Below are positions 1-21,151 of a DNA stretch of 21,151 nt, piece after piece. The first letter of the stretch is position 1, and the number at the start of each line of letters is the position of its first letter. The notes beneath the pieces were generated by a model. The model saw only the letters and a program-made list of their open reading frames with translations. It was not told the origin of the DNA and searched no databases. The DNA comes from a virus: the IMG/VR virus record IMGVR_UViG_3300025879_001111, positions 1-21,151 of that record, one strand, 5' to 3'. Position numbers and translations under genes: made by a program.

Positions 1-99
1 ACTGGTAAAGAATTAGGAATTCAAATCCATTGGATAAATCGTTCACATGGTTGGAGTACTACAAAGTTTAAAAAAGCAATAGCAGAATCAATAAAATGA
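1..99 (+). CDS. C-terminal end of an unidentified protein (partial)
   Basis: The window opens inside a reading frame (frame 1) that gives 32 residues, with IHWINRSHGW followed by a lysine-rich tail, and stops at TGA 97-99. The stop overlaps the next start as ATGA, the coupling also seen between later genes of this string, so I take it as the real end of an upstream gene in the same operon. The fragment is too short to assign to a family. Confidence 0.6.
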   Translation, partial: TGKELGIQIHWINRSHGWSTTKFKKAIAESIK

Positions 100-2911: not shown

Positions 2912-3470
2912 TCCTTGGATTTTTTGGCCAAGTAGTATTTGTGATACCTTTCCAACCAATCCTGCAGATAAATTATTAAATGGTAAACATTCCTATAAAA
3001 TAGATATTACTCTTACTCTATTGGATGATACTCCTACTAAACGAACTTTATTTTCAATACTACCTAAATATTCTGGTTTAGATATTGATGATGGTTGTAT
3101 GATTTTTTTATTAGGCAAAGAACATGGTACTGAAACTTTTGTTTTACCATCAGTAATACTACCTAATAAAAAAACCAATATAATATTAAACTATACTTAT
3201 AGTAAGTTGGTTTCTTTAACCATAGATGGTATTCTTATTAAAGAAATTCCACTTGAAGAACCACTTGGTTTTGATGAAAATCCTCATATTATATTTGGGG
3301 CAGGTAATTTCCCTAAAAATGGATTTAATCTAAACTATACAGATATTGACTTACATGAATTCAAATTATGGATTGACGGTGAGTTGGAATCTGAACATGA
3401 TTTTAATAAATTTATTTTTGATAAATCATTTGATAAAACAGAAAATTGTAATTTTATACATAAACTTTAA
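2889..3470 (+). CDS. Stand-alone LamG/concanavalin-like domain protein
   Basis: A 193-residue protein that appears to be a single beta-sandwich of the LamG/concanavalin-like type, usually a carbohydrate- or protein-binding fold. Supporting segments are the strand pattern in HSYKIDITLTLLDD (34-47), VSLTIDGILIKEIPL (near 107-121, a typical LamG hairpin with 'xIDGxxI'), and IDLHEFKLWIDGELE near the C-terminus, matching the 'GxIxxVxIWxxxL' strand of the LamG domain in the glycosyltransferase encoded at 96-1535. There is no signal peptide or membrane segment. The start is the only ATG before the domain and lies 23 bases inside the preceding radical SAM gene. Sitting between two radical SAM genes of the HHP subtype, it may bind or present their substrate, but that is inference. 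It could also be a small structural or adhesin-like protein. Confidence 0.68.
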   Translation: MLEIRKGNPWIFWPSSICDTFPTNPADKLLNGKHSYKIDITLTLLDDTPTKRTLFSILPKYSGLDIDDGCMIFLLGKEHGTETFVLPSVILPNKKTNIILNYTYSKLVSLTIDGILIKEIPLEEPLGFDENPHIIFGAGNFPKNGFNLNYTDIDLHEFKLWIDGELESEHDFNKFIFDKSFDKTENCNFIHKL

Positions 3471-3473
3471 GTT

Positions 3474-5099: not shown

Positions 5100-6472
5100 A
5101 AATAAAACCAGAAGAAGGTAATAAAACATTTTGTATCGCACCATGGACACATACATACCTCTCACCACAAAGTGAGAGAAGATTATGTTGTGCCTCACGA
5201 GAAAAAGCTGAGTGGGCAACTCAATATATAGATGGAGATGCTGCGGATGAGGGGTCTGTTTACAATCCTGGTACATTAAAAGACCATTGGAATTCTGAAT
5301 ACATGAAGGGTATTCGTAGGGATTTAATGGCTGGTAAAGAAATACCACAATGTGCGGTATGTAATGGTAAACTTCTAAACATATCAATTTATCGTGATTA
5401 CTTTACCAAAACTTTATTTCCACATAAAGTAGATGAGGCATTTGAAAAAACCAATGATGATGGTCATACAGAAATGCCACCAATCTCATTTGATTATAGA
5501 ATTAAAAACTTATGTAACTTTAAATGTAGAATGTGTGGAGACCAATTATCTTCTTCATGGGAATCTGAAAGGAGAGCTATGGGAGATTATGATGCAGAAG
5601 GTAATGCCGATTTTTGGGCTCAAAAGAAAAATAAACCTGCTATTGAATCTTTTCAAAAAGATGTAGCAGAAGCTGAATTATGGGAGGCTGTAAAAAATGG
5701 TACAATCGAAGAAATCTATTGGGTAGGTGGTGAACCTCTAATGTGGGATATACATTGGGAAGTAATGGAATATTTAGTTGAACATGATTTAGCTAAAAAT
5801 GTGTGGGTTCGTTATAACACCAACTTCAGTAGAACGACTTATAAACATTGGGATTTAAAAAACATGTTACCACACTTTAAAACTGTACAAATTTGTGCTT
5901 CTATTGATGGTGTTGGTAAAAACGTAGAATACGTAAGACATGGTATTAAATGGGATAGTTGGATTCAGAACTTTAAAGATTATACTTTTTTAAATAAAAA
6001 GTATGGTGATTATGGAATTGCATTTGATTTAACCATAACTACCCCTGGTCTTTTTTGTTTAAAGGAATTGTTAGATTTAGCATTAGAGTTAGATGTTCAT
6101 ACTTTAATAAAAACTACATTTGCATTTGATAGTACTATCATGATGTGTCCTCAAGTTCTTCCTCGTGAATTATTTGATGAAGTGTTAGATGATTTAATCG
6201 AATATGTAACTCCAAAGGTACAAAATACTAAATACGCATATTGGATTGATTGTTTAGTTGATTTAAAAGCTAGACAAGTATTCTCCGAACAATATCCCGA
6301 TTGGGAAGAGGGATTACGTAACGGCAAGAAGAGATTACAACGAGTAGACTCGTGGAGAAAGAACGAAGGTATAATTGAAGAAATATATTCAGCTAACCCA
6401 AAAGTATTGGAATGGTGGAATTCTATTAAATTAGATGAAGCAGAAACACTACCACACTCAAGTTTATTATAA
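5096..6472 (+). CDS. Radical SAM protein 3 with N-terminal twitch-type domain
   Basis: A 458-residue radical SAM enzyme. Core cysteines are Cys140, Cys144 and Cys147 in CNFKCRMC; GGEP is at 211-214. The N-terminal domain has FCIAPW (Cys13), the CC pair (31-32) and Cys86/Cys89 in PQCAVC, the likely ligands of an auxiliary cluster. The segment RIKNLCNFKCRMCGDQLSSSW closely parallels proteins 6 and 7, so these three look like a second subgroup. SIDGVGKNVEYVRHGIKWDSW (about 269-289) is the conserved strand of the barrel after GGEP. The C-terminus keeps the family signature as VDSWRKNEG...NPKVLEWW. It is coupled on both sides by overlapping stops and starts (ATGA upstream, TAATG downstream). Substrate unknown. 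Confidence 0.93.
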   Translation: MKIKPEEGNKTFCIAPWTHTYLSPQSERRLCCASREKAEWATQYIDGDAADEGSVYNPGTLKDHWNSEYMKGIRRDLMAGKEIPQCAVCNGKLLNISIYRDYFTKTLFPHKVDEAFEKTNDDGHTEMPPISFDYRIKNLCNFKCRMCGDQLSSSWESERRAMGDYDAEGNADFWAQKKNKPAIESFQKDVAEAELWEAVKNGTIEEIYWVGGEPLMWDIHWEVMEYLVEHDLAKNVWVRYNTNFSRTTYKHWDLKNMLPHFKTVQICASIDGVGKNVEYVRHGIKWDSWIQNFKDYTFLNKKYGDYGIAFDLTITTPGLFCLKELLDLALELDVHTLIKTTFAFDSTIMMCPQVLPRELFDEVLDDLIEYVTPKVQNTKYAYWIDCLVDLKARQVFSEQYPDWEEGLRNGKKRLQRVDSWRKNEGIIEEIYSANPKVLEWWNSIKLDEAETLPHSSLL

Positions 6473-7695
6473 TGGAAGCACCCGGAGAAGAATATAGAAA
6501 AAAATCATTTTGTGTACTACCCTTTACACATTTAGCAACCCACCCAATTGGTACTGTCACACCTTGTTGTGTTACTGATATGACCGATAGTGTGAGTACT
6601 GCTGCAGATGAAAACGGACATCACTTATTTCTATCTAAAGACCCGTTGGATAATATTGCTAATTCTGATAAATTTAATAAAATTAGAAAACAAATGGTTA
6701 ATGGAGAATTTCCATCTGTTTGTAGTAAGTGTTACAAATATGATTTAAATGGAGTTCATTCTAAACGAATGGAATCTAACCTTAAATTCTCTCACCTAAT
6801 AGATGAATGTTTTAAAAACGTAAATGAGGATGGTTCTTTAAAGAAAGTAGATTACAAGTATGTAGAATTACGACTGGGTACTGTCTGTAATTTAAAGTGT
6901 GTTACGTGTAACCCATTTTCATCAAACCGATGGAATCAAGATTTAGCAGTATTTAAAGGAACTGAATTTGAAAAAGATTATTTCAAAAATGAAATAAAAA
7001 CAGAATGGTTTAGGGATTATGACTTTTATGATGAACTTTATACAAAATGTTCAGAATTAGAAGAAGTTTGGATAAATGGTGGAGAACCAACCTTAATAAA
7101 AGAACATGGATATTTCTTAAATAAATTTATCGAAGATGGTACTTCTAAAAATATAGATTTACATTATAGTTTAAACTGTACTCAGTTTCCAGACCATTTT
7201 ATTGAATTGTGGAAAAACTTTAAAGAAGTTAGAATACATTTATCAATTGATGATTTGGAAGATAGAAATCACTATGTACGATATCCAGCAGATTGGGATG
7301 TTATTTTTAAATCATTCGAAAAAATCATACAATATAAAGATGTATTCAATTTAGAAGTTTGTCAAACAGTAAGTGCATTAAATGTATATCGTATAAATGA
7401 TTTTAAAAAATGGGTAGATAGTTATGGGTTAATAATAGCTCACAACTATGTTCATTGGCCAGAACATATGCATGTTTCGTTGATACCAGATGAAATGAAG
7501 GAAGAAATAAAAAATAATATATCTAATTTAGCACCACATGAGAAAGATAGATTAATCATGGAATTGGATAAACCAAAAAATACTACAAAGGAAAAGATGT
7601 TTTATCATTTTGTAAATTTATTGGATAAACAACGAAATGTTTATATTGGTGATTATTTGAAAGAATGGGATTCTTATTTTAAAAAATTATTGTAG
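6472..7695 (+). CDS. Radical SAM protein 4 with N-terminal twitch-type domain
   Basis: A 407-residue radical SAM enzyme. Core motif CNLKCVTC (Cys139, Cys143, Cys146) with GGEP at 203-206. The N-terminal cysteine set is FCVLPF (Cys14), TPCC (Cys32/33) and CSKC (Cys84, Cys87). The barrel strand usually reading 'SIDG' is SIDDLEDRNHYVRYPADWD here, so the glycine after the aspartate is lost and the substrate pocket may differ. The C-terminal signature is LDKQRNVYIGDYLKEW. The start overlaps the stop of protein 3 by one base (TAATG), and protein 5 begins one base after its stop. It is among the shorter members. Substrate unknown. Confidence 0.92.
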   Translation: MEAPGEEYRKKSFCVLPFTHLATHPIGTVTPCCVTDMTDSVSTAADENGHHLFLSKDPLDNIANSDKFNKIRKQMVNGEFPSVCSKCYKYDLNGVHSKRMESNLKFSHLIDECFKNVNEDGSLKKVDYKYVELRLGTVCNLKCVTCNPFSSNRWNQDLAVFKGTEFEKDYFKNEIKTEWFRDYDFYDELYTKCSELEEVWINGGEPTLIKEHGYFLNKFIEDGTSKNIDLHYSLNCTQFPDHFIELWKNFKEVRIHLSIDDLEDRNHYVRYPADWDVIFKSFEKIIQYKDVFNLEVCQTVSALNVYRINDFKKWVDSYGLIIAHNYVHWPEHMHVSLIPDEMKEEIKNNISNLAPHEKDRLIMELDKPKNTTKEKMFYHFVNLLDKQRNVYIGDYLKEWDSYFKKLL

Positions 7696-7696
7696 T

Positions 7697-8944
7697 ATGA
7701 GTAAAAGTATGTGTATAGTTCCATGGGTAGGGTTCTCAAACGATCCAGATGGTACGGTTAGAGCTTGTTGTATATCAAAAGAAAAGGTTACTAAAGAAAA
7801 TGGTGATTTATATTATACTCAATTGGATAATGTAAAGGATATATTTCATTCTCCATATATGAAACAACTTAGACAAGATTTTATTGATGGTAAAAAACCA
7901 AAAAATTGTGAAGTATGTTGGAAAGATGAAGAAAATGGATATACCAGTAAACGCGAGCATTATAATGAAATTATAAAAGAGTATATGGGTGAGTATGCTA
8001 TACCCGAACTAATATATACATCAGAAGTACCCGAATATCCATTTGATTTTCAAGTTATCTTATCAAACGCATGTAATTTAAAGTGTAGAAGTTGTGGTAG
8101 TTCACACAGCACTGAGTGGTACAAGGAATTAAAGACAATGCCAGAAGGTGATATACAAGGTATAAGAAATTATTTATATCCATTACCCCATGGTCAGGCT
8201 GGTGATAAGAAAGGTGAGTTTATATCATCAATGGATGATTGGATTGAACACGTTAAACGAATCGAAATAGTTGGGGGTGAACCTTTCTACACCAATCATT
8301 GGGAAAATGCATGGAATAGAATGATTGAACTTAGAAAATCTAAAGATATCATTATAAACATGTCTTGTAACGCAACAATTTGTAATGAACCATTGGTAAG
8401 GAGAATTGCAGAAAACTTTAAAAGAGTTGGTATTGGTTTAAGTGTTGATGGTATGGGTAGAACATTTGAATATCTGAGAAAGGAAGCTAAATGGGATGAT
8501 GTTGTTCAAAATTTAAAACAATTTCACAAAATTAATTTAGATTATCAGAAGTATAATAAAACATTCTTCAACTACACATATACGACATCGTGGATTAATG
8601 CATGGGAACTACCCGAATTTCATGATTGGTTTAAAGAACACACGCCATCCTTCTCAATATGGATGAACATAATCCACAACCCAGAGCATATGTGTTTATA
8701 TACCTTGCCAGTTGAGACTAAAGATAAAATAAAGGAAAAGTGGTTAGCATATAAAGGTTGGGGTAAATATCAAAGTGATATTGAAGGAATGATAAAGTAT
8801 ATGTACAGTAAACAATTTACCGATACTGAACTTAAACAAATTTATACTAGATTCACAATATTGGATAAGTATAGAAATGAAAAAACAATAGATGTAGTTG
8901 GTGATTTTTATCCAGAACTTAAACCCTACTTTCAAAATGACTGA
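7697..8944 (+). CDS. Radical SAM protein 5 with N-terminal twitch-type domain
   Basis: A 415-residue radical SAM enzyme. Core motif CNLKCRSC (Cys126, Cys130, Cys133) and GGEP at 193-196. The N-terminal domain begins almost at once: MCIVPW (Cys6), DGTVRACC (Cys24/25) and CEVC (Cys71, Cys74), then ENGYTSKREHY, matching the 'ExxG-x-SxR' run after CxxC in several paralogues. A short insertion with PLPHGQAGDKKGEF (about 162-175) separates the core cysteines from GGEP and resembles the MPYGRKNEGNPY insertion of protein 2. The barrel strand is LSVDGMGRTFEYLRKEAKWDD. The C-terminal signature is LDKYRNEKTIDVVGDFYPELKPYF. Adjacent genes lie one base upstream and overlap by 8 bases downstream. Substrate unknown. 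Confidence 0.92.
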   Translation: MSKSMCIVPWVGFSNDPDGTVRACCISKEKVTKENGDLYYTQLDNVKDIFHSPYMKQLRQDFIDGKKPKNCEVCWKDEENGYTSKREHYNEIIKEYMGEYAIPELIYTSEVPEYPFDFQVILSNACNLKCRSCGSSHSTEWYKELKTMPEGDIQGIRNYLYPLPHGQAGDKKGEFISSMDDWIEHVKRIEIVGGEPFYTNHWENAWNRMIELRKSKDIIINMSCNATICNEPLVRRIAENFKRVGIGLSVDGMGRTFEYLRKEAKWDDVVQNLKQFHKINLDYQKYNKTFFNYTYTTSWINAWELPEFHDWFKEHTPSFSIWMNIIHNPEHMCLYTLPVETKDKIKEKWLAYKGWGKYQSDIEGMIKYMYSKQFTDTELKQIYTRFTILDKYRNEKTIDVVGDFYPELKPYFQND

Positions 8945-10217
8945 TAAAGAAAGAGCATTAAAATCAAAATCGTTTTGTGCAGCACTTTGGACTTCATTAT
9001 ATCAAGATCCAAATGGAAGTGTATCGCCATGTTGTGTATGGGGTCAGGGAGATGGTAATTCACAATTTGGTAACGTAAATGATAGTTCATTATCAGAAAT
9101 ATACAGTTCTTCAAAAATATTAAACTTTAAAGAAAAAATGTTATCTGGTGAAACTTTAAAAGAGTGTGTGTATTGTAATAAATTACACGAATCGACTGGT
9201 GAATCTTCACGAGATTTTTATAATAATAATTTTTTTGATAAAATAAATTGGGAAACAGGTGATAGTAATTTCTTACATTGGGATTTAAGAATATCTAATC
9301 TTTGTAATTTTAAGTGTAGAATGTGTTACCATGATTTAAGTTCAGAATGGTTTGACGATGCAGTAAAACTTTCAGATAAAGTTCTACATTTGAATAAACC
9401 AACTCAACGAATAATTAAGATAAACGATAAATCTAAGTTTTGGAGTGAATTGGAAAATCACTATCAATATGCGGAATATATATATTTTGCAGGTGGAGAA
9501 CCATTTATAAATGAACATCATTATAAAATTTTACAAGATTTGGTTGATAGAAATTTGCACGAAAACGTGCGATTAACTGTAAACACCAACCTATCTATAA
9601 TCCAATGGAAGAAGAAAAGCGTATTAGATTATTACAAACATTTTAATCATATCGTATTTGGTTTTAGTATTGACGGTAGTTATAAGATTGGTGAATACAT
9701 TAGAAAGGGATTAGATTATAATCAATGGAAACATAATGTTAGAGAATTTGTAAATTTTATAAATGAACGAAATACGATGAATATTACTTATGTATTTCAA
9801 TTCGCATATGGTGTCACTAATATGCATAATATTTGTGATTTTATATTGGATTTACATAAAGATAATCTTCTACTTGATGATAAGTGTAAGTTTAATTTTC
9901 AACCAATCATGCACCCACAGGAACAATCTGTCAGAGCACTACCACCCACTATTTTTGAAAAAGTAAAAAAAGATTTTGAAAACCTATATATAACACTAGA
10001 ATCGTTTGGATATACTGAACATTTTATAGAACCACTTAAACATGAATTTGAAAATATAATTTCATTTGTAAATGATACTCCGTTTCATAATAGTTTTTTA
10101 AATATATTTTATAAAAACCAAATTGAATTAGATAAAATTAGAGGTGAGAATATATTTGATATTTTACCTGATTATAGAAAAATACCAATAACAAACAATG
10201 GAACAAACCTCATATAA
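8937..10217 (+). CDS. Radical SAM protein 6 with N-terminal twitch-type domain
   Basis: A 426-residue radical SAM enzyme. Core motif CNFKCRMC (Cys123, Cys127, Cys130) and AGGEP at 185-189. The N-terminal domain has SFCAALW (Cys14), NGSVSPCC (Cys32/33) and CVYC (Cys77, Cys80). I chose the ATG at 8937 over the in-frame ATG at 8898: it puts FCxxxW about 14 residues from the start, as in the paralogues, and gives an 8-base overlap with protein 5 instead of 47. It is closest to protein 7: both have the 'HYQYxExIYFAGGEP' block and 'GEYxRKG' in the next strand. The C-terminal signature is LDKIRGENIFDILPDY. It overlaps the next gene by 20 bases. Substrate unknown. Confidence 0.92.
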   Translation: MTDKERALKSKSFCAALWTSLYQDPNGSVSPCCVWGQGDGNSQFGNVNDSSLSEIYSSSKILNFKEKMLSGETLKECVYCNKLHESTGESSRDFYNNNFFDKINWETGDSNFLHWDLRISNLCNFKCRMCYHDLSSEWFDDAVKLSDKVLHLNKPTQRIIKINDKSKFWSELENHYQYAEYIYFAGGEPFINEHHYKILQDLVDRNLHENVRLTVNTNLSIIQWKKKSVLDYYKHFNHIVFGFSIDGSYKIGEYIRKGLDYNQWKHNVREFVNFINERNTMNITYVFQFAYGVTNMHNICDFILDLHKDNLLLDDKCKFNFQPIMHPQEQSVRALPPTIFEKVKKDFENLYITLESFGYTEHFIEPLKHEFENIISFVNDTPFHNSFLNIFYKNQIELDKIRGENIFDILPDYRKIPITNNGTNLI

Positions 10218-11526
10218 CATACAAAAATTAAAAGATTCTAAATCTTTTTGTATTGCACCATGGATGACATCTCACACTTGGCCAGATGGGAGAGTTTTAC
10301 CATGTTGTTTGTATAATACAGACCCTGCCGATTACGATAAATCAGACCCACTTATACCACCATTTGGAAATGTAAATGATTCTGAATTAAAAGATGTATG
10401 GAATTCAGATAAGTATAAAGAGATGAGAGTTCAGATGCTAGATGGTAAAAAACCCTCTGGTTGTTCTCGTTGTTATCATCTTGAAGATAATGGTGGATTA
10501 TCATATAGACAAAAATTTACAAAAGATTTTGAACATACATTTGAGTTGGTAAACAAAACTCAATCCGATGGACATCTTAATGATATGAAATTATATGCAT
10601 GGGATTTTAGAATATCAAATTTCTGTAATTTCAAATGTAGAAGTTGTGGAGTTGATTTATCATCATCTTGGCATTCTGACCAAATAGCATTATTTCCAGA
10701 AGAAGCAGATTTTAGAAAAAAAGGATTAATTAGTGTAACCGATAAATCATCCTTTATGGATATGATTGAACCACATTATCAATATGTAGAAGAAATTTAC
10801 TTCGCAGGTGGTGAACCATTGATGATGCCTGAACACTATGAAATACTTGATAAGTTAGTTGAACTCAATCGTACTGAAACTGCTATTCGATATTCAACTA
10901 ATTTTTCTAAATTAAGATTTGGCAAAAAGAACATATTGGATATTTGGAAAAATTTTAAAAACTTATCATTATATATAAGTGTGGATGGGGTTGGTAAAGT
11001 TGGTGAATATGTTAGAAAAGGATATAATCATGTGGAATTTATAAATAATGTTAAATTATTTAGAGAATCTAGTATTGAATATAAAGAACTTGGATATATG
11101 GTAACCTATGGTTCCTTAAATTATTTACATTTATTTGATTTGGTACTTGAATTTATTAGAGAGGGTATTTTAGATACAACTATTCATCCAAAGCAAATAA
11201 CAATAACTCTTGTACCAATAACACAACCATCATATTATAATTGTCAATTTTTACCCAATTGGGTTAAGGGGGAATTTAAAAAAAGATTGGATAACTTTAA
11301 ATCAGAATTACTCGAATTTGAATGTGATGAATTTTTCATAAAAGAAATAATGGAAAAATTAGAAAACGTGTATAAACGTAGTGTGGATGTTGATTTTAAT
11401 TTAGATGAAATGAAGCAATTAAAATCATTCACAGATAAATTAGATATGCTGCGTTCTGAGAATTTTAACACTACATTTGAAAGTTATTATGGTAATATTG
11501 ATAATCTGTTAATAAATGAAAAGTAA
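10198..11526 (+). CDS. Radical SAM protein 7 with N-terminal twitch-type domain
   Basis: A 442-residue radical SAM enzyme. Core motif CNFKCRSC (Cys143, Cys147, Cys150) with AGGEP at 203-207. The N-terminal domain shows FCIAPW (Cys18), DGRVLPCC (Cys36/37), the GNVNDSELKDVWNSDKY stretch typical of twitch-type domains in this family, and CSRC (Cys89, Cys92) followed by LEDNGGLSYR. It pairs with protein 6 by the HYQYVEEIYFAGGEP block and by SVDGVGKVGEYVRKG. The C-terminal signature is weaker (LDMLRSENFNTTFESYYGNI). It starts 20 bases inside protein 6 and overlaps protein 8 by 11. Substrate unknown. Confidence 0.92.
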   Translation: MEQTSYNIQKLKDSKSFCIAPWMTSHTWPDGRVLPCCLYNTDPADYDKSDPLIPPFGNVNDSELKDVWNSDKYKEMRVQMLDGKKPSGCSRCYHLEDNGGLSYRQKFTKDFEHTFELVNKTQSDGHLNDMKLYAWDFRISNFCNFKCRSCGVDLSSSWHSDQIALFPEEADFRKKGLISVTDKSSFMDMIEPHYQYVEEIYFAGGEPLMMPEHYEILDKLVELNRTETAIRYSTNFSKLRFGKKNILDIWKNFKNLSLYISVDGVGKVGEYVRKGYNHVEFINNVKLFRESSIEYKELGYMVTYGSLNYLHLFDLVLEFIREGILDTTIHPKQITITLVPITQPSYYNCQFLPNWVKGEFKKRLDNFKSELLEFECDEFFIKEIMEKLENVYKRSVDVDFNLDEMKQLKSFTDKLDMLRSENFNTTFESYYGNIDNLLINEK

Positions 11527-12625
11527 AACCGATTTAAAAGATTTTGTTTGTTGGTTTCCTTTTGGGTTTACTGAGATAACGCATGATAGACAAACATTAT
11601 GTTGTTCAGGTTGGTTAACGAAGGATATTGGTTCCAATAAAAATCTAAAAGAAAATTGGGATAGTGATACTGCTAATGAGATACGAGAATCTGTATTAGA
11701 CGGTTCATTTAAATATTGTAAAAAAGATACATGTCCATTTTTAAGTACTGTTATAAATAATGGATTGCCTGCAGGACCCATTTTACGTAAAAACGAAATA
11801 GGACTTAAGGGTGTTATTGATTTAGATGGATACAAAAAAAGACATCCAAAATTAGATGCAGATGAAACATTTGGATACCCAGATACCCCACGACAATTTA
11901 AAGTTGTATGGGATTCAACTTGTAATTTGGCATGTCCTTCTTGTAGACCAAACTTTATAACAAATACAGAAGGTAACACATTAAATACAGAAGAAATACT
12001 ACAAGATATAATTACTCACTATGGTAGAGGTGTAAAATCTATGACTATGAGTGGGTATGGTGATCCTTTTTACAGTACTGGTTTATTTAAATTTTTACAA
12101 TCATTTAAAAAAGAAGAATGGCCGAATCTGAATAATATACATTTACATACCAACGCTTTACTGTGGAATTCACGTAATTGGGATATTATAAAACACTCAC
12201 ATTCCTTTATTAATTCAGCTGAAATATCAATTGATGCAGCAACAAAAGAAACATATCAAGTTGTGCGTAGAGGTGGTAAGTGGGATTTACTATTAAAAAA
12301 TTTACAATTTATTAGTACACTTGATTTACGAGAAATTACTTTTTCATATGTTGTTCAAAAGGAGAATTACAAAGAAATGATTGATTTTTATAAATTAATA
12401 AAGGAAATATTTAAAGATAGTAGTATTAATATTTTATTTTATTATTATAAAATTTTAGATTGGGGTGTTATGGATTCCGTTCAATATGAAGAAGCGGCAG
12501 TTTGGAAAGATACACATCCATTATATAATGATTTTCAAAAAGAGGTGAAAGAATTTATCAAAATACATGATGATTCGGTATCACACAGTTTATGGGATTA
12601 TGAGGGGAACGACGACATATTATAA
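11516..12625 (+). CDS. Radical SAM protein 8, divergent and shortest member, with N-terminal twitch-type domain
   Basis: A 369-residue radical SAM enzyme. Core motif CNLACPSC (Cys136, Cys140, Cys143). The N-terminal domain keeps VCWFPF (Cys12) and LCC (Cys29/30), but the last pair is spaced CKKDTC (Cys68, Cys73), not CxxC. The AdoMet-contact GGEP is replaced by SGYGDP (179-184), a variant I recall from other radical SAM proteins. SIDAATKETYQVVRRGGKWDLLLKN (about 238-262) matches the typical strand of SPASM/twitch enzymes. The C-terminal D-x2-R signature of the other seven is absent. Despite these changes the core cysteines and overall order are intact, so it is probably active. It may act on a different substrate or come from a separate lineage. 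It overlaps the genes on both sides. Confidence 0.9.
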   Translation: MKSKTDLKDFVCWFPFGFTEITHDRQTLCCSGWLTKDIGSNKNLKENWDSDTANEIRESVLDGSFKYCKKDTCPFLSTVINNGLPAGPILRKNEIGLKGVIDLDGYKKRHPKLDADETFGYPDTPRQFKVVWDSTCNLACPSCRPNFITNTEGNTLNTEEILQDIITHYGRGVKSMTMSGYGDPFYSTGLFKFLQSFKKEEWPNLNNIHLHTNALLWNSRNWDIIKHSHSFINSAEISIDAATKETYQVVRRGGKWDLLLKNLQFISTLDLREITFSYVVQKENYKEMIDFYKLIKEIFKDSSINILFYYYKILDWGVMDSVQYEEAAVWKDTHPLYNDFQKEVKEFIKIHDDSVSHSLWDYEGNDDIL

Positions 12626-13297: not shown

Positions 13298-16200
13298 ATG
13301 AGTGAACTTTCAAAATATCTCGTAGAACAAATTCTACTCGAGGATGATAATCCTATTAAAAAGACCGTAGTAGTGTATGTGGGTAGGTTTCAACCTTTCC
13401 ACAAAGGACACTATGCAACTTACCAACATCTTGTAAAGAAATTCGGTAAGGATAATGTATTTATAGGAACCTCTAATAAAGTTCAAAAACCTAAATCACC
13501 CTTTAACTTCAAAGAAAAGGTACAGATAATGACAACGATGTTTGGAATTCCAAGTTCCAAGATACATCAAGTTAAAAATCCATACCAGCCTACTGAAATT
13601 CTTAAAAAGTTTGATGAAGAATCAACTGCCTTCATAACCGTTGTTGGTGAAAAGGATAAATCTCGTTTAGGTGGTAAATACTTTACTCCATATAAAGGAG
13701 ACCCGACTGAAGGATATAGAGATAGGGGATATGTTTACGCAGCTCCTTCTCAATCAAACCCAATAAGTGGCACTGATGTTCGTAACGGATTATCATTAGG
13801 TTCAGACGAACAAAAACAATCATTCTTTACAGATAGAGCATATCCAAAATATAATAAAACTATATTCAACTTAATCACTTCTAAATTAAACGAAGGAATT
13901 TTTATTTCCAAAGAACGAATTGAAGAATGGTTAGTTAATGAAGCATCTAATGTTGTTGGTAACGCTGGTAATGATGTAGATGATGGACCTAATAACTTCT
14001 TTCCAAATTATGATGTATTCTCTAAGGTAAATATCAATAGAGCTGCAAAGATTGGATACGAGGTAGTTAATATGATTACTACTAAAGAGTTGGAAGATTA
14101 TTACGAACATCCAACTTATCCAAACGGACCAACTGGAACAGTAACTTACTTTCCCGCAGGTGTACTTGGTGCAAAAACTCCAAACAACCAAATTGATATT
14201 TACTCAAGTGGTGCATATACTAAATGGTACAAACATGCAACTCGTAAAGCATCTTTGGTAGGATATTCATTAGTATCTGACCCAAATATGAAATCTGATA
14301 AGAAACAATCAGGTGATGATGCACGTGGTGATTTAAAATCACAATCAGAATACGAGAATTCAGTAAACGAAGCAATAACCTTACCAGTAGAGATTGGTGA
14401 TACTTTATTAATGGGTAAATTTAAGAACAAAAAAGTTGTTGTTAAATCTATTGGTAAAGATGAACATGGTATGCCAACCATCAATGGTAAAAAAGTAGTT
14501 ACATTTAGATATGTAAACGAATCTTTTATTGTTGAACTTGCTGGAACTGCAGTAAAATGTGAAAAATGTAATCATTCATGGGAGATAGAATCCGATGATG
14601 ATGAAAAATACTTATGTCATTCATGTGGTTGGGATTCTCAACAACAAGAATATGATTTTGATGCATTTGATTCGTGGAGAGAGAAAATGGGATTGGATGA
14701 ATCAATGGATGAAAGAAGTAAAGGTAAATTAAGACCTGCAGATTTACTTCGAAGAAAAGCTGCAATGGCTGGTAAACGAGCTCAAATTGCAAGAAGAAGA
14801 AAAAGAACAATGATGAGAAGAAAATCCATAGATAAACTTAAAAAGATTGCTTACAAAAAAGCATACTTAGAAGTTTACAAAGAATTTATGGAAGAATTGT
14901 TTCCAGGTAAATCAAAATCTGACTTAACTATCCAACAAGCAAAAGTAGTTCATCGAAATGTTCTTAGAAAAAAGAAAAGAGTTTTAAAACGAGCAAGATT
15001 TAAGTTCTTACCACAATTAAGAGATACAGAATCACAAAAATTTAGTGGACAAACCAATGAACAACTAATCAAAGAAAACATAAACGAAACTAAATTACTT
15101 CAAGAAGGTGGTGCATATGGACACATGAATCACCCATTTGATACTGAAATCAATTTAACATTCGGACAACTTAAAGATATCGTAAATCGTGCATTAGAAG
15201 GAAACTTAGAATTTACACGAGAAAAAACTGATGGTCAAGCATTGGCAGTATCATGGGTTAATGGTAGATTAGTTGCTGCAAGAAACAAAGGACATCTTAA
15301 AAATCGTGGTGAAAATGCATTAGATATAAATGGTGTTGCTGATAAGTTCAAAGGTAGAGGTGAATTAGAAAAAGCATACAACTTTGCAATGAAGGATATG
15401 TCTGATTCAATAAAATCCTTATCAGAAAAACAAAGAGAGAAGATTTTCAAAGGTGGTGCATGTTTTATGAACCTTGAAGTAATCTATCCTACCTCAGTTA
15501 ACGTAATTCCTTACGGTCAACCTCTATTAGTATTCCACGGAACAATGGAATACGATGAAAGTGGTGTTGCAATTGGTGAAAATGCTGATGCTGGAAGAAT
15601 TTTGGCAGGTATGATTAAACAAATCAACAAAGATGTACAAGATAATTACACAATTCAAGGTCCTCCTGTAATTTCTTTACCAAAATCACAACAATTATCC
15701 TCTAAAAAAGGAAAATATACATCTCAAATCTCAAAACTACAAAAAGAATTCGGTTTAAAGGATACTGATGGGGTTGCTGAGTATCATCAAGCATGGTGGA
15801 TGCAATGGATTAGTAAAAATTCACCATCTACACTCGATAATAAAACTCTAATGGGGTTAGTTAAGAGATGGGCATTCTATGATAAAGGATTTAGAATCGA
15901 TAATAAGAACATTTCAGATGAAAAAACTCTAACTTGGGCTAAGAAAATCGATTCACAAGACCAAAAGAACATTGCTAAGAACAATATGATGAAATTTGAG
16001 AATATTTTCTTAGGAGTTGGTGCAGATGTGTTAGAATTTACATCATCAGTACTAACTGTAAACCCAGATGAAGCAGTTCGTTCTATAAAAAAGAGAATTG
16101 ATAAAACAATTAAGGATGTTCAGAAATCAGGTGACCCTAAAAAGATTGAAAAATTGAAATTAGAGTTAAAACGATTACAATCTATTGGTGGTCCTTCTAA

Positions 16201-16303
16201 AATTGTACCAAACGAGGGAATTGTTTTTCAATATAAAGGAAACACTTTCAAATTAACTGGTGCATTTGCTTCCGTAAACCAACTATTGGGTATTTTCTTC
16301 TAA
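13298..16303 (+). CDS. Large multidomain protein: HxGH nucleotidyltransferase, zinc ribbon, basic helical region, ligase-like C-terminal domain
   Basis: A 1001-residue fusion. Residues 22-200 form a cytidylyltransferase/NMN-adenylyltransferase-like domain: GRFQPFHKGH (29-38, the HxGH nucleotide-binding motif) and ISGTDVR (156-162, the 'ISxTxVR' motif). Residues 212-350 form an unrecognised domain containing AAKIGYEVVNMI. A zinc ribbon follows (Cys421, Cys424, Cys440, Cys443). Residues 471-595 are extremely Arg/Lys-rich and helical. The C-terminal domain resembles covalent nucleotidyltransferases (DNA/RNA ligases): KTDG (643-646) as motif I, EGIVFQ (973-978) as motif IV and FKLTGAF (984-990) as motif V, with MNLEVIYP as a possible motif III. 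No OB-fold follows, since the protein ends 11 residues after motif V. Its place between candidate promoters and packaging genes suggests a late product, perhaps virion-associated or a nucleic-acid repair/modification enzyme. The exact reaction is not known. Confidence 0.8.
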   Translation: MSELSKYLVEQILLEDDNPIKKTVVVYVGRFQPFHKGHYATYQHLVKKFGKDNVFIGTSNKVQKPKSPFNFKEKVQIMTTMFGIPSSKIHQVKNPYQPTEILKKFDEESTAFITVVGEKDKSRLGGKYFTPYKGDPTEGYRDRGYVYAAPSQSNPISGTDVRNGLSLGSDEQKQSFFTDRAYPKYNKTIFNLITSKLNEGIFISKERIEEWLVNEASNVVGNAGNDVDDGPNNFFPNYDVFSKVNINRAAKIGYEVVNMITTKELEDYYEHPTYPNGPTGTVTYFPAGVLGAKTPNNQIDIYSSGAYTKWYKHATRKASLVGYSLVSDPNMKSDKKQSGDDARGDLKSQSEYENSVNEAITLPVEIGDTLLMGKFKNKKVVVKSIGKDEHGMPTINGKKVVTFRYVNESFIVELAGTAVKCEKCNHSWEIESDDDEKYLCHSCGWDSQQQEYDFDAFDSWREKMGLDESMDERSKGKLRPADLLRRKAAMAGKRAQIARRRKRTMMRRKSIDKLKKIAYKKAYLEVYKEFMEELFPGKSKSDLTIQQAKVVHRNVLRKKKRVLKRARFKFLPQLRDTESQKFSGQTNEQLIKENINETKLLQEGGAYGHMNHPFDTEINLTFGQLKDIVNRALEGNLEFTREKTDGQALAVSWVNGRLVAARNKGHLKNRGENALDINGVADKFKGRGELEKAYNFAMKDMSDSIKSLSEKQREKIFKGGACFMNLEVIYPTSVNVIPYGQPLLVFHGTMEYDESGVAIGENADAGRILAGMIKQINKDVQDNYTIQGPPVISLPKSQQLSSKKGKYTSQISKLQKEFGLKDTDGVAEYHQAWWMQWISKNSPSTLDNKTLMGLVKRWAFYDKGFRIDNKNISDEKTLTWAKKIDSQDQKNIAKNNMMKFENIFLGVGADVLEFTSSVLTVNPDEAVRSIKKRIDKTIKDVQKSGDPKKIEKLKLELKRLQSIGGPSKIVPNEGIVFQYKGNTFKLTGAFASVNQLLGIFF

Positions 16304-17021: not shown

Positions 17022-17396
17022 ATGGGAACAACAAAGTACACAAACATGTTAATCATCATCTGTATGGTTTTTCTAGCATTTACAATTTTTAATGTTAGAG
17101 GATTAAAGACAGATATTGAGGGATTTAATCAAAAGATTGAAAACATCGGTAAAGAGATAGATTCTATCCAAACCATGAATACTGAATTAGATGCAATGAT
17201 TTCATCTTTACATTCAGAATTGGAATTGATTGATGGTGATATAGATAGAGTACAAAATAACATTTATTCAATAAGGAGAAATACAGATGAAAAAACTAAT
17301 TCTGTTGATAAGCTTACTATTAGTGAGCTTCAAGAGTTTTTCACAAAACGATACGATAGTATCTTTGAAGCAACCTATCGCAAAACTGGTAATTAA
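17022..17396 (+). CDS. Small membrane-anchored coiled-coil protein, possible Rz-like (i-spanin) protein
   Basis: A 124-residue protein with one N-terminal membrane segment (about residues 8-24, NMLIIICMVFLAFTIF), then a long heptad-like helix (about 28-95) with many Leu, Ile and Glu/Asp, and a charged C-terminus. The expected topology is N-in with the coiled coil outside the cytoplasmic membrane, as in the Rz subunit of phage spanins. The next gene begins inside its last third in another frame, which also recalls the Rz/Rz1 arrangement. No lipoprotein partner is visible, so the lysis role is a hypothesis. The alternative is a general envelope-anchored phage protein. It starts 2 bases after the preceding stop and has no clear ribosome binding site of its own. 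Confidence 0.72.
   Translation: MGTTKYTNMLIIICMVFLAFTIFNVRGLKTDIEGFNQKIENIGKEIDSIQTMNTELDAMISSLHSELELIDGDIDRVQNNIYSIRRNTDEKTNSVDKLTISELQEFFTKRYDSIFEATYRKTGN
17273..17278 (+). promoter_or_regulatory. Strong Shine-Dalgarno for the overlapping gene at 17287
   Basis: AAGGAG lies 8 bases before ATG 17287 and inside the coding region of the upstream gene. Most genes in this window lack a recognisable Shine-Dalgarno, so this one supports independent initiation at 17287 and the reality of the 110-base overlap. Confidence 0.6.
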
Positions 17397-17688
17397 AGAT
17401 TTAATTAGTGGTGATGGTGCAAAGTTAGAACTTCTATCCATACAAGAACTTTTAAAATTAGAACAAAAGAAAGTTATTTTAAAAGATTCGGTAATTGGTA
17501 AATTAGATACTAAGGTTTTAAACTTGGAAAATATTATCTTAAAAAAAGATGAACAGTTTTCATTAGAGGCTGAGAAATCTAAACAATTAGAAAAAGAACT
17601 CAAAGGTCAACGAAGAAAAACTTTCTTGTATAAAGTTGGAACTTATATTGGGGCAGGAGCATTACTCGTTTTATTAGGTGGTAAATAA
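17287..17688 (+). CDS. Exported/envelope protein with signal peptide and C-terminal membrane segment (Bacteroidetes-phage type, possible lysis protein)
   Basis: A 133-residue protein. Residues 1-20 (MKKLILLISLLLVSFKSFSQ) form a signal peptide with the SFSQ ending common in Bacteroidetes. After it, NDTIVSLKQPIAKLVIKDLISGD leads into a charged helix with repeated 'xKKVILKDSVIGKLDTKV' character, and a C-terminal hydrophobic segment (about 112-131, TFLYKVGTYIGAGALLVLLGG). I recall the DTIV...KPIAK...KDLxxGD...KKVxLKDSVI pattern from small proteins of Bacteroidetes phages. There is no lipobox cysteine, so it is not a standard Rz1 or unimolecular spanin. It overlaps the upstream coiled-coil gene by 110 bases in a different frame, with AAGGAG 8 bases before its ATG. 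Its stop overlaps the terminase start by one base (TAATG). Lysis or envelope function is inferred. Confidence 0.78.
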   Translation: MKKLILLISLLLVSFKSFSQNDTIVSLKQPIAKLVIKDLISGDGAKLELLSIQELLKLEQKKVILKDSVIGKLDTKVLNLENIILKKDEQFSLEAEKSKQLEKELKGQRRKTFLYKVGTYIGAGALLVLLGGK

Positions 17689-19283
17689 TGGCTAAACAAT
17701 CATTAAAAGAAATAATTAAGTTAGAGTATCAGAAGTGTGCATCGGACCCGATATACTTCATGAAGAAGTATTGTATGATACAACACCCTGTTCGTGGTAA
17801 GATACCTTTTCACTTATTTCCATTTCAAGAATCTACTCTAACACAATTTCACGAAAGTAGATATAACATCATCTTAAAATCTCGTCAAACAGGTATCTCA
17901 ACCTTAACTGCAGGATTTTCATTATGGAAGATGTTATTCAACCAAGATTTCAACGTGTTGGTAATTGCAACCAAACAAGAGGTTGCTAAGAACCTTGTAA
18001 CCAAGGTAAGAGTAATGAATCAGTATTTACCTTCTTGGTTAAAACAAGAAACAGTAGAAGATAACAAACTATCTCTACGATACTCAAATGGCTCACAAAT
18101 TAAAGCAACTTCAGCTGCTGGAGATGCTGGTCGTTCGGAAGCCTTATCTCTATTAGTATTTGATGAGGCAGCCTTTATCGACAAGATTGAAGAAATTTGG
18201 GTATCTGCACAATCTACCTTATCAACGGGTGGTAACGCAATTATCTTATCAACTCCAAATGGGGTAGGTAACTTTTTTCACAAAACTTGGGTAGGTGCAG
18301 AAGATGGTACAAACACATTTAACACTATTCGGTTACATTGGTCTGTTCATCCAGAAAGAGACCAAACTTGGAGAGATGAACAAGAAGTTTTATTAGGACC
18401 AAAAGGAGCAGCACAAGAATGTGATTGTGATTTCGTAAGTTCTGGTGATACTGTTATCGACCCACAACTTCTAATGTTCTATAAAGAAACTTATTGTCAA
18501 GAACCAATTGAAAAGACTGGGTTCGATGGAAACCTATGGAAATGGGAATATCCAAATTATCAGAAATCTTATATGGTCATCGCCGATGTTGCTCGTGGTG
18601 ATTCTGCCGATTTCTCGGCCTGTCATGTAATCGATATAGAATCCTCTACACAAGTTGCTGAGTATAAAGGTAAGTTAGATACCAAAGATTTCGGAAACTT
18701 CCTTGTATCACTTGCTACTGATTATAACCAAGCATTATTGGTAATTGAAAACGCAAATATTGGTTGGGCAGTAATCCAACAAGTAATCGATAGAGGTTAT
18801 CAAAACTTATTCTACATGAGTAAGGATTTAAAATATGTAGATGTAGAAAATCAACTACATAACAAATACCGAGCAGAAGAAAGAAACATGGTCGCAGGAT
18901 TCTCAACTACTTCTAAAACACGACCTCTAATCATTTCTAAGATGGAACAATACATCAGAGAAAAAGATGTAACCATTCGTTCTACGAGAACCATAGATGA
19001 GTTATTTACTTTTATATGGAATGGTAATCGTGCAGAAGCAATGAGAGGTTACAATGATGATTTAGTCATGTCCTTATCCATTGGATTGTGGGTTAGAGAT
19101 ACTGCATTACGATTAAGACAAGAAGGAATTGATTTAACTCGACAAGCAATTGGAGGCATCGGACAATCCACTTTAGATATGGGTGGAATGGGATTCGGTG
19201 GTAATACTGTCAATGATTCCAATCCTTGGGAAATGGATATGGGTAACGGTCATCGAGAGGATTTAACTTGGTTAATTAAATAA
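17688..19283 (+). CDS. terL: Phage terminase large subunit (T4 gp17-like)
   Basis: The 531-residue motor that drives genome packaging: ATP-powered translocation of DNA through the portal and endonucleolytic cutting at the start and end of packaging. The ATPase domain shows a Walker A variant SRQTGIST (65-72), Walker B LLVFDEAA (155-162) with the catalytic glutamate, and the coupling motif STPNG (188-192). The nuclease domain has the acidic residues expected for an RNase H-like fold: Asp300 in IADVARGD, Glu354 in VIENANIGW and Asp457/458 in YNDDLVMSLSIGLW. All active-site motifs are intact. It starts one base into the stop of the preceding gene and is followed by a 35-base gap carrying the AT-rich control element. 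No small terminase subunit is recognisable in this window. Confidence 0.97.
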   Translation: MAKQSLKEIIKLEYQKCASDPIYFMKKYCMIQHPVRGKIPFHLFPFQESTLTQFHESRYNIILKSRQTGISTLTAGFSLWKMLFNQDFNVLVIATKQEVAKNLVTKVRVMNQYLPSWLKQETVEDNKLSLRYSNGSQIKATSAAGDAGRSEALSLLVFDEAAFIDKIEEIWVSAQSTLSTGGNAIILSTPNGVGNFFHKTWVGAEDGTNTFNTIRLHWSVHPERDQTWRDEQEVLLGPKGAAQECDCDFVSSGDTVIDPQLLMFYKETYCQEPIEKTGFDGNLWKWEYPNYQKSYMVIADVARGDSADFSACHVIDIESSTQVAEYKGKLDTKDFGNFLVSLATDYNQALLVIENANIGWAVIQQVIDRGYQNLFYMSKDLKYVDVENQLHNKYRAEERNMVAGFSTTSKTRPLIISKMEQYIREKDVTIRSTRTIDELFTFIWNGNRAEAMRGYNDDLVMSLSIGLWVRDTALRLRQEGIDLTRQAIGGIGQSTLDMGGMGFGGNTVNDSNPWEMDMGNGHREDLTWLIK

Positions 19284-19318: not shown

Positions 19319-19696
19319 ATGATAAAATTATCTAATTTATTAGAAAATACTTCATATTGTGAAGAATACGATGTAGAATCTCATGATGATATCAGAGAGT
19401 TTGTAGAATTCATGAAAGAATATAAGTGTGATGTCAACGAAGCAGAATACCAAGGTAGAGAGGTAAAACTTGGTAAACCAATGCAAGGTGATGTTAAGAA
19501 ATTTAAAGTATATGTCAAAAACCCCCAAGGAAACGTAGTAAAAGTAAACTTTGGACACAAAGGTAAGGGTGGTGAAAAAACAATGTCAATCAAAAAGAAT
19601 AATCCTGAAAGAAGGAAAGCTTTTAGAGCAAGACATAATTGTGATAACCCCGGTCCAAGACACAAGGCAAGATATTGGTCTTGTCGTAAATGGTAA
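19319..19696 (+). CDS. Small basic conserved phage protein next to the portal gene
   Basis: A 125-residue soluble protein. Residues 1-38 are acidic (VESHDDIREFVEFMKEYKCDV). From about residue 43 the protein turns basic and beta-rich: AEYQGREVKLGKPMQGD, KKFKVYVKNPQGNVVKVNFGH. It ends with a very conserved-looking run, ERRKAFRARHNCDNPG followed by RHKARYWSCRKW, in which two Cys and several Arg, His and Trp residues may bind metal or nucleic acid. I recall this C-terminal motif from many marine phage proteins near portal and capsid genes, but no function is established to my knowledge. It has its own AT-rich element and AGGAG ribosome binding site. Its position between terminase and portal suggests a role in packaging or virion assembly (inference). 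Confidence 0.78.
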   Translation: MIKLSNLLENTSYCEEYDVESHDDIREFVEFMKEYKCDVNEAEYQGREVKLGKPMQGDVKKFKVYVKNPQGNVVKVNFGHKGKGGEKTMSIKKNNPERRKAFRARHNCDNPGPRHKARYWSCRKW

Positions 19697-19725: not shown

Positions 19726-21151
19726 ATGGCAGATACTTCATTTTTTGGGAGATTAACGAAACTCTTTCGTTCACAAGCAATCGTTACGGTTGATAAGGAT
19801 GGAAAGCGTAAAGTTTTTGATTCTGATGAAAGACAACAAACAAACTTATCGTCCCTAAGAGATAGATACACCAAAATTCAGAAATCTTTTTATGAACAAG
19901 CCGGTGGTGCCCAATCAATGGCATACCAACAAGTTCGTAGAGAAGTTTTTCGTGATTTTGATGCAATGGATAATGACCCTATCCTTTCTTCTGCATTAGA
20001 TATCTATGCTGATGAATCTACTTTAAAAAATGAGTTCGGTGATACCTTAATGGTTCACTCGGATAATCAAAAAGTACAAGATGTACTTAATAACTTATTT
20101 TACGATGTCCTTAACATTGAATTCAACTTATGGCCATGGGTAAGAAACATGTGTAAATATGGAGATTTCTTTTTAGGTTTAGAAGTTGCCGAAGGTAAGG
20201 GTGTAGTTAACGTTACACCTCATTCAGTTTATAATACTGAACGTTTAGAAAGAACTGACCCATCAAATCCAAATTCAGTAAAGTTTAAAATTACTGAGGA
20301 CCCGAATGGAAAACAAGAATACGAAAACTTTGAGATTGCTCACTTCAGATTATTAGCAGATACTAACTGGTTACCATATGGTAAATCAATGTTAGAAAAT
20401 GGTAGAAGATTGTGGAAACAATTATCTCTAATGGAAGATGCAATGTTAATCCATAGAATTATGAGAGCACCTGAAAAGAGAGTTTTCAAAATTGATATCG
20501 GTAACATTCCTCCAACCGAAGTTGATAACTACATGCAGAGAATTATCAATAAGATGAAGAAAGTTCCTTTCATTGATAAAAATACGGGTGATTACAACTT
20601 AAAATATAATATGCAAAACCTAACAGAAGATTTCTATCTTCCTGTTCGTGGTGGTGATAGTGGCACATCTATTGATAACCTTGCTGGTTTAGAAGCACCT
20701 TCAATTGATGATATCGATTACTTAAAGAATAAAATGTTTGCAGCATTGAAAATTCCTCGTGCTTATTTAGGATACGAAGAAAACGTAAATGGTAAAGCTA
20801 CTCTTGCTGCAGAAGATGTAAGATTCGCAAGAACTATCGAAAGAATACAAAGAACAGTAATTTCAGAATTATCTAAAATTGCAATCGTTCATTTATACGC
20901 ACAAGGTATCCAAGATTCAGAAATGACTAATTTCGAATTACAATTGGTAAACCCATCTACAATTTACGAACAAGAAAAAGTAAACTTGTGGAGTGAGAAA
21001 ATTAGATTAGCTCAAGATATCCAAGGATTGAATATGTTATCTAAGGATTGGGTATATGAAAACATCTTTAAACTTTCTAATGGAGAACAAGATGTTCAGA
21101 GAGTTAAAATGTTAGATGATTTAAAAGATAGATTCCGTTTCCGTTCTATTG
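19726..21151 (+). CDS. gp20: Phage portal protein (T4 gp20-like), 3' end outside the window
   Basis: The first 475 residues of a portal protein. It forms the ring at one capsid vertex that starts head assembly, docks the terminase and lets DNA pass. Recognisable gp20 features are the N-terminal RREVFRDFDAMDNDPILSSALDIYADE region, the block RAPEKRVFKIDIGNIP starting near residue 247 (T4-type portals have RAPERRxFYIDVGNLP), then TEDFYLPV near 300 followed by GGDSGTSIDNLAG, and KMFAALKIPRAYLGYE. T4 gp20 is about 524 residues, so only roughly the last tenth is missing. The start at 19726 gives the expected short N-terminus; no better ATG lies upstream. It follows the small basic gene after a 29-base gap. 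In T4 the tail sheath and tail tube genes lie between the terminase and portal; here they do not. Confidence 0.96.
   Translation, partial: MADTSFFGRLTKLFRSQAIVTVDKDGKRKVFDSDERQQTNLSSLRDRYTKIQKSFYEQAGGAQSMAYQQVRREVFRDFDAMDNDPILSSALDIYADESTLKNEFGDTLMVHSDNQKVQDVLNNLFYDVLNIEFNLWPWVRNMCKYGDFFLGLEVAEGKGVVNVTPHSVYNTERLERTDPSNPNSVKFKITEDPNGKQEYENFEIAHFRLLADTNWLPYGKSMLENGRRLWKQLSLMEDAMLIHRIMRAPEKRVFKIDIGNIPPTEVDNYMQRIINKMKKVPFIDKNTGDYNLKYNMQNLTEDFYLPVRGGDSGTSIDNLAGLEAPSIDDIDYLKNKMFAALKIPRAYLGYEENVNGKATLAAEDVRFARTIERIQRTVISELSKIAIVHLYAQGIQDSEMTNFELQLVNPSTIYEQEKVNLWSEKIRLAQDIQGLNMLSKDWVYENIFKLSNGEQDVQRVKMLDDLKDRFRFRSI

Follow-up and report, generated by a model that had tools for sequence, protein, structure and literature searches.

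What is the function of a phage protein that carries a nucleotidyltransferase at one end, an RNA-ligase-like domain at the other and a string of small modules in between? The question is raised by IMG/VR record IMGVR_UViG_3300025879_001111, whose 21,151 nucleotides form the window analysed here and supply all position numbers given below. In this fragment of a T4-like phage, a single open frame on the plus strand, running from an ATG at 13298 to a stop at 16303, encodes a protein of 1001 residues. We consider it most probable, with a likelihood of roughly 70%, that the gene specifies a capsid-targeted cargo polyprotein that is cut by the prohead protease of the phage. The computed evidence for this proposal comprises the identities of the domains, the combination of constant ends with a variable middle, the residue pattern at positions P3 and P1 of the domain borders, the concentration of insertion edges at putative cleavage sites, and the presence in relatives of the protease and of a gp23 bearing the same motif.

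Relatives of the protein were gathered from IMG/VR, bacterial genome contigs and annotated phages. Three overlapping scans of IMG/VR returned at least 595, 304 and 598 of them, with the ligase domain detected at least 595 times; among annotated phages, this domain was found only in Microcystis phage Mel-JY01, a 462-kb phage and a 484-kb phage. Both domains share one open reading frame (ORF) in 154 of 247 loci, the frame is cut at its 5' end in 77, the ligase forms a separate ORF in 14, and the remaining two show other arrangements. Since some loci represent the same contig reached through different queries (L155 and L256, for example), locus counts overstate independence, and distinct contexts were used in their place where possible. 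The 101 complete fused ORFs, counted with duplicates kept, have a median length of 854 residues (range, about 635-2103) and a middle part of 24 to 1503 residues. When 64 distinct middles were compared with Pfam, 16 contained DUF5661, three an HD domain, two a GNAT domain, one a poly(A)-polymerase/CCA-type head and one a Zn_protease domain, and a [DE][DE]GP motif occurs in the middle of 61 of the 101 complete relatives. GNAT, HD, CCA-adding-type, DUF5661, zinc-ribbon and basic modules are gained and lost between conserved ends. Visual inspection of the 484-kb phage (L003, 8485-11242) showed an additional ParB-like stretch (LDGHHRWKA) ahead of its NMNAT domain, indicating that modules can be added at the N-terminal end as well.

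The window protein itself can be divided into a series of parts, most of which are bordered by a putative cleavage site of the type (L/I/V)-x-E (a slash marks the bond in what follows). An N-terminal leader (residues 1-15; 13298..13342), which resembles a capsid-targeting propeptide of T4, contains putative cuts after E10 (LVE/Q) and E15 (LLE/D). It is followed by an NMNAT-like HxGH nucleotidyltransferase domain (residues 16-199; 13343..13894), assigned by Pfam CTP_transf_like and fold matches, whose C-terminal edge shows a putative cut after E199 (LNE/G), and then by a 'DDGP' module (residues 216-358; 13943..14371) framed by putative cuts after E215 (VNE/A) and E358 (VNE/A). Next come a small beta module with the sequence 'LPVEIGDT' (residues 359-408; 14372..14521), which we take to be KOW-like, an acidic, zinc-ribbon-like module (residues 409-468; 14522..14701) with putative cuts after E408 and E468, and an Arg/Lys-rich basic module (residues 469-593; 14702..15076). 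A linker (15077..15106), at whose end putative cuts are clustered (LIKE593/N, INE597/T and LQE603/GG), leads to the RNA-ligase-like domain (residues 604-1001; 15107..16300), identified by its invariant motifs and predicted fold. Several of these parts had been anticipated in the original prediction, made from the DNA sequence alone. The two nucleotide-handling active sites that it proposed, GRFQPFHKGH/ISGTDVR near the N-terminus and KTDG, EGIV and FKLTG near the C-terminus, were located in the translation, and its Arg/Lys-rich segment was borne out by a net charge of +27 and a pI of 11.2 for residues 470-592. The zinc ribbon fared less clearly: the CxxC...CxxC pattern is present near residues 420-446, which makes such a fold plausible, whereas the matches to the zinc-ribbon-type models HypA (0.0058) and MJ0042 (0.0048) were both sub-threshold. 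Within the basic module, residues 481-585 match phrog_23027 weakly (E 0.053), a family also matched by the middles of 10 of the 64 relatives (best 3e-15); as the sole query, the module found nothing in the phage collection.

The putative sites correspond to the specificity of the T4 prohead protease gp21, which cuts after L/I-x-E and whose cargo substrates bear leaders with such sites, as described in part of PMC9026906. As a control, gp23, gp22, gp67 and gp24 from the T4 record show the motif [LI]xE[AGS], which lies at residue 65 in gp23. In the polyprotein family, the pattern is most striking just before the ligase domain, where all 122 distinct contexts have L or I at P3 and G at P1', with E (107) or M (15) at P1, while P2 is occupied by 12 different residues. 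Before the NMNAT domain, [LIVM]xE is present in 57 of 60 distinct contexts, compared with 25.2 ± 3.5 in 500 shuffles (highest value 36); the reversed decoy E.[LIVM] showed no excess (25 versus 25.7). The leaders preceding this first domain vary between clades, yet [LIVM]xE is kept, and the same motif stands immediately upstream of the small beta module in 18 of 18 distinct contexts. Further evidence comes from insertions, each 60 residues or longer, that distinguish related members of a set of 79 distinct proteins. They yielded 62 clusters of insertion edges, of which 50 remained once the ligase border was excluded and 36 after deduplication by context. Of these 36, 23 lie within five residues of [LI]xE, compared with 4.5 ± 2.0 for random positions, and 11 are near [LI]xE[AGS], compared with 1.4. 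The decoys [LI]xD (3 versus 4.6), [LI]xK (5 versus 8.1) and [LI]xN were without excess. An earlier breakpoint test based on all BLAST segment ends, which gave only a two- to threefold excess, is superseded by this analysis.

The ligase genes that stand alone follow the same scheme. In 13 of the 14 separate ORFs, the domain is preceded by a short leader of its own and by the border LxE/GG: one group starts with MIRLHKILNEVLLKE/GGAYGHMNHP, and the separate ligase ORF of the 462-kb phage starts with MKFLKSYEEFLNENLILE/GGSYGHLNHP. This layout matches that of T4 cargo proteins, whose leader of about 10-20 residues is removed by gp21 according to the relevant part of PMC7411985. One lineage departs from the pattern. 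In 42 loci, corresponding to 15 of the 122 contexts and including L172, L175, L208, L213, L214, L227 and L242, the border reads LLLM/GG instead of LLxE/GG, and in the 20 of these 42 loci that were listed, the sequence AAGGAG lies eight bases 5' of an in-frame ATG placed exactly at the ligase border. An internal start at the very same point supports the border, although not entry into the capsid.

The surroundings of the gene are those of a T4-like head module, as expected from the earlier assignment of the protein to the late region. Downstream on the plus strand lie a T4-like terminase large subunit (17688..19283; Pfam Terminase_6N 1.3e-13, phrog_2 8.7e-48) and a T4-like portal protein gp20 that runs off the window (19726..21150; Pfam Portal_T4 2.1e-68). 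Where 5.5 kb or more of downstream sequence is available (143 loci), the terminase large subunit follows on the same strand in 141 cases and the portal protein in 140. Between the two genes, the window encodes a small basic protein of 125 residues (19319..19696, plus strand), which has a leader-like start (MIKLSNLLE) and a CDVNE/A site and which matches phrog_7595 over residues 39-125 only (E 1.3e-11); its sequence makes it a candidate for a second protease substrate. The 21-kb record ends before the region that would be expected to contain the protease. Relatives encode a T4-type prohead protease downstream, along with gp23, the major capsid protein: of ten records searched, nine contain the S77 protease and nine gp23; in the tenth, a 101-kb contig, the polyprotein locus is near the contig end. 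Seven of the nine gp23 sequences were read, five of which contain, within their first 70 residues, LLEG together with QLLDE/A, QLLKE/A, QLISE/A or close variants at the propeptide border, a feature shared by the remaining members of their group, and gp23 of the 462-kb phage has INE/A and IIE/G.

These observations are consistent with a pathway in which the short N-terminal leader would recruit the polyprotein to the prohead core, where a gp21-type (S77) protease would cut after (L/I/V)-x-E at every domain border. The mature head would then contain an NMNAT-like enzyme, the DDGP, beta, zinc-ribbon and basic modules and an RNA-ligase-like enzyme as separate pieces, which would exit with the DNA at infection, and the cargo would change in evolution by the gain and loss of whole modules at protease sites. 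We regard cleavage by the prohead protease, as read from the border sequences, as very probable. Packaging into the head is proposed by analogy, because a distant cousin of the polyprotein has been found in cyanophage virions, and appears quite likely; the subsequent ejection of the pieces into the host is rather likely, with somewhat less confidence. The cousin is the NMNAT-like cytidyltransferase T4-GC190, listed in the part of PMC3037559 that reports the virion proteome of phage S-SM1; NMNAT-like proteins are likewise reported for virions of S-SCSM1, S-CBWM1, S-SZBM1 and S-CREM2 in parts of PMC10665884 and PMC9602691. S-SM1 GC190 begins with MKKFSAFLNE/A.

Several points weigh against this interpretation. 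In the same portions of PMC10665884 and PMC9602691, the authors of the cyanophage proteomes caution that contamination could account for the NMNAT, and the hhalign alignment of the N-terminal domain with S-SM1 GC190 is weak (E 0.014, probability 3%). The leaders of a marine clade, such as MKKKGHSSVPYGSGYEKIKE, are unlike the T4 leader apart from their xxE end. Among the insertion edges, the decoy E.[LI] is also above random (15 of 36 versus 5.2), perhaps due to paired sites such as LKEGLLKEGG; in addition, the alignment may pull insertion edges toward short similarities at the sites, and the relatives are not independent of each other. Counted without regard to position, [LI]xE is no more frequent than elsewhere: 11.4 per 1000 in the polyproteins versus 16.1 in the remaining plus-strand frames of 150 residues or more among mechanically called ORFs. 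Only the form with A, G or S at P1' is enriched (3.83 versus 2.24 in these frames). The signal is therefore carried by the position of the sites, not by their number. Finally, one of the 14 separate ligase ORFs, from a distant member of the family (L104), has no leader, and judging from its internal start, the LLLM/GG lineage may translate its ligase in a free, leaderless form, in which case capsid entry would not be general or would occur by another route.

Among the other explanations, a virion-packaged polyvalent protein, which either remains intact or owes its processing to an embedded peptidase or to events following injection, and not to the prohead protease, survives best, although we consider it unlikely. 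In the account given in part of Iyer et al. (2017; PMC5512222), polyvalent proteins likewise combine many unrelated domains, including GNAT and nucleotidyltransferases, and their entry into the host is predicted; their processing is proposed to rely on embedded zincin-like or C-terminal assemblin-like peptidases. A peptidase is indeed suggested by the Zn_protease domain in one of the 64 middles and by an AHELVH stretch in L015. Such modules are rare, however, whereas the LxE borders are general and recur as the same site in gp23 of the same phages. The borders in the family of the window carry the site of a separately encoded prohead protease. No core of NMNAT and RNA ligase was encountered among the polyvalent proteins covered by the relevant part of PMC5512222. 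A functional parallel to the proposed cargo polyprotein is provided by the T4 internal proteins IPI, IPII and IPIII and by Alt, which share with it a short (L/I)xE leader, basic pieces and the head context and, as seen in relatives of the window, a gp21-type protease encoded in the head block. Alt is cut at both ends, as stated in part of PMC9026906. The T4 proteins are each encoded by one gene and have one leader, whereas the family described here places several proteins in series and has exchangeable middles. The polyprotein would work like the T4 internal proteins, among which it is a candidate member, and it resembles polyvalent proteins.

Two annotated phage proteins are of note. Gp159 of Sinorhizobium phage phiM12 (602 residues) also combines a basic stretch and a 'SPEDIEF' cargo module in one ORF; its N-terminal part is loosely HxGH-like by eye, with no significant hhalign alignment to our N-terminal domain, and no ligase domain was seen in it. 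Gp088 of Flavobacterium phage immuto (L317, 1632-4355), a protein of 907 residues annotated as an NMNAT and encoded about 10 kb upstream of the terminase gene, contains stretches that by eye resemble a Pol-beta nucleotidyltransferase and an HExxH-type peptidase.

The C-terminal domain had been proposed to be a KxDG ligase-like enzyme without an OB fold after motif V, and our results agree with this view. Its motifs EKTDG (residues 642-646), EGIVF (973-977) and FKLTG (984-988) contain most of the catalytic positions (codons for K643, 15224-15226; E727, 15476-15478; E973, 16214-16216; K985, 16250-16252; all on the plus strand). E642, K643, D645, G646, R662, E727, E973, G974 and K985 are invariant in 55 of 55 aligned C-terminal domains, in line with the conservation predicted for K643. 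Of 184 distinct domains, 182 retain the KxDG, EGxxF and K[LF]TG blocks together, and the two exceptions are incomplete matches. An AlphaFold2 model of the domain reached a predicted local distance difference test score (pLDDT) of 89.3 and a predicted template modelling score (pTM) of 0.84. In a Foldseek search of the PDB, the best E value was only 0.0097, with RNA ligases or a putative ATP-dependent ligase in the first 17 rows. VIA-align placed T4 RNA ligase 1 (Rnl1) first, with a Z score of 8.6, which lies just over the range in which the tool considers chance matches to be common, followed by NgrRnl (8.4), Trl1 and TbREL1 (7.9) and Rnl2 (7.5); of its 50 best rows, 48 are nucleic-acid ligases, headed by RNA ligases, and the remaining two are RumA (Z 5.8). 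The C-terminus thus matches covalent nucleotidyltransferases, as foreseen, and because the Z score is marginal by itself, the assignment relies on the list of folds together with invariant motifs in the right order. No model in Pfam, PHROGs or NCBIfam matched the domain, and a profile of it, compared with PDB sequences, gave nine matches up to E 10 (best E 0.021), with no ligase among them.

Compared with the group of T4 RNA ligase 1, Rnl2, NgrRnl and Trl1, the C-terminal domain has the predicted fold and the invariant KxDG, E, EG and K in common, whereas it is without a sequence-level match to solved ligases. It also differs in a helical insertion of about 200 residues (at about 763-969), which separates the HGTMEY strand from the EGIV of motif IV, and in having nothing after motif V: the chain stops 16 residues past K985, and its modelled end is a single helix. 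As every catalytic position is kept, the ligase is probably active. Two more specific identities were considered and set aside. A DNA ligase or an mRNA capping enzyme is disfavoured by the missing OB fold and the first rank of RNA ligases, and NAD+ as the cofactor of the ligase is unsupported, since the extra domain that characterizes NAD+-dependent ligases does not precede it.

The HxGH enzyme at the N-terminus is of the NMN-adenylyltransferase-like type. It contains GRFQPFHKGH at residues 29-38 (HKGH, 13400-13411) and ISGTDVR at residues 156-162 (13763-13783), both on the plus strand, and matches Pfam CTP_transf_like (PF01467) over residues 26-163 (E 6.5e-08; 33.3 bits versus a cut-off of 21). 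Matches to NCBIfam models of NMN adenylyltransferases, including equivalogs, were all below their cut-offs. In a predicted structure of residues 15-424 (mean pLDDT 71.7), only the NMNAT domain was modelled well, and the DDGP module was poor. VIA-align gave Z scores of 12.7 for phosphopantetheine adenylyltransferase, 12.5 for the NMNAT/Nudix protein 2qjt and 12.0 for the NMNAT 1ej2, so that NMNAT (12.0-12.5) and phosphopantetheine adenylyltransferase are tied and the fold does not separate the substrates. SGTxxR is present in 160 of 160 relatives and HxGH in 35 of 82 distinct N-terminal domains; in the other 47, which form the marine clade, the first His is replaced by Gly (GPHH, GLHH or GIHH) and SGTxxR is retained, a change which suggests that catalysis has been lost or altered.

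These results also bear on the idea, advanced in the original prediction, that the two domains work as a single fused enzyme, one of them supplying a cofactor that the other uses. A true multidomain enzyme, whose NMNAT-like and ligase-like parts act jointly on one substrate, for instance to seal or cap RNA by means of a cofactor produced on the spot, and in which LxE just reflects linker composition, appears improbable. It would agree with the two intact active sites in the window and with the evolutionary linkage of the pair, which is adjacent or fused in cyanophages too. It is at odds with a middle that varies by up to 1500 residues, the separate ligase genes in 14 of 247 loci, the retention of the ligase motif blocks next to the 47 of 82 N-terminal domains that have no first His, and the putative cleavage sites at the borders, which are far above random.

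The cyanophage pair consists of DUF6267 (T4-GC71), which likewise places a ligase-like KWDGAP...HEG.V...K pattern beside an HxGH-type enzyme, and the cytidyltransferase T4-GC190. In S-SM1, GC190 lies immediately downstream of a gene for a DUF6267 protein that contains KWDGAP and HEGFV; the S-PM2 record LN828717 has both in a single ORF of 591 residues, in reverse order. Used as a query, this fusion matched 506 phage records, and in 201 of these a single region accounts for at least 80% of the query. Of two S-PM2 records, LN828717 matches the gene without interruption, whereas in AJ630128 the match is split in two, a difference that could represent a sequencing error or a real frameshift. The pair differs from the polyprotein in its reverse order, in the absence of cargo in between and in a sequence relation to the C-terminal domain that is not significant: hhalign comparisons with DUF6267 gave no significant result with one sequence or with 15, although the order of motifs is alike by eye, and PF19782 (DUF6267) showed no match to the polyprotein up to E 1. 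A BFVD structure search with the model of the C-terminal domain reached the 591-residue S-PM2 protein with E 1.4e-4 and TMq 0.40. Because the cyanophage genes are adjacent, and fused in reverse order in S-PM2, a functional link between the NMNAT-like and ligase-like activities is likely.

Least probable is that the pieces form a late enzyme set outside the virion, acting in the producing cell, for example in late RNA repair, through a translational fusion with internal starts, since the internal AAGGAG start of one lineage (42 loci) and the separate ORFs, one of them leaderless, which would fit such a set, are outweighed by the rarity of these internal starts, which take the place of the site in no more than 15 of the 122 contexts, and by the removable leader ending in LxE/GG in 13 of the 14 separate ORFs.

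As to the role of the capsid-cargo polyprotein in infection, its two constant ends may serve the early repair of damage inflicted by host defence: cleaved RNA, probably tRNA, would be resealed by the ligase, and NAD+ would be replenished by the NMNAT. We put this forward tentatively, as somewhat less than an even prospect. Phages mend cleaved tRNAs using ligases and nucleotidyltransferases, as described in part of PMC9503650. One relative adds a CCA-type nucleotidyltransferase, which, going by its domain assignment, would fit tRNA repair in combination with an RNA ligase. With 47 of 82 distinct N-terminal domains devoid of an intact HxGH, NAD+ synthesis is not possible as a general function.

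The remainder of the window contains further genes of note. Two small overlapping ORFs lie between the polyprotein and terminase genes (17022-17396 and 17287-17688), the first encoding a coiled-coil protein with a hydrophobic N-terminal stretch and the second one with a signal-like start, a layout that we assume to be reminiscent of overlapping spanin genes. Upstream, eight successive ORFs (1532-12625; starts at 1532, 3474, 5096, 6472, 7697, 8898, 10198 and 11516) show a radical-SAM-like CNxxCxxC motif by eye; in the one that was scanned (5096-6472), matches to Radical_SAM and SPASM were below the cut-offs. Eight such genes in a row seem unusual for a phage. At the start of the window (96-1535), a glycosyltransferase family 7 domain is fused to a LamG-like (Laminin_G_3) domain.

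In a search of the open-access literature, with subscription papers outside its reach, no title or abstract was found that describes this polyprotein. Its family is large and reaches phages of 462 and 484 kb. It is conceivable, although more speculative than the repair function itself, that aquatic T4-like phages possess a serial, evolvable delivery cassette, in which a lineage-specific kit is injected around a constant core of ligase and NMNAT that mends damage to tRNA and NAD+ before phage genes are expressed, the ligase representing a new RNA-ligase family linked to DUF6267. Few phage proteins are known that accompany the DNA into the cell, where they act ahead of all phage gene expression. 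If our interpretation is true, the cargo of uncultured phages would become predictable from sequence, by cutting at LxE and listing the pieces, and the polyprotein would constitute an evolvable route for the delivery of proteins into bacteria.

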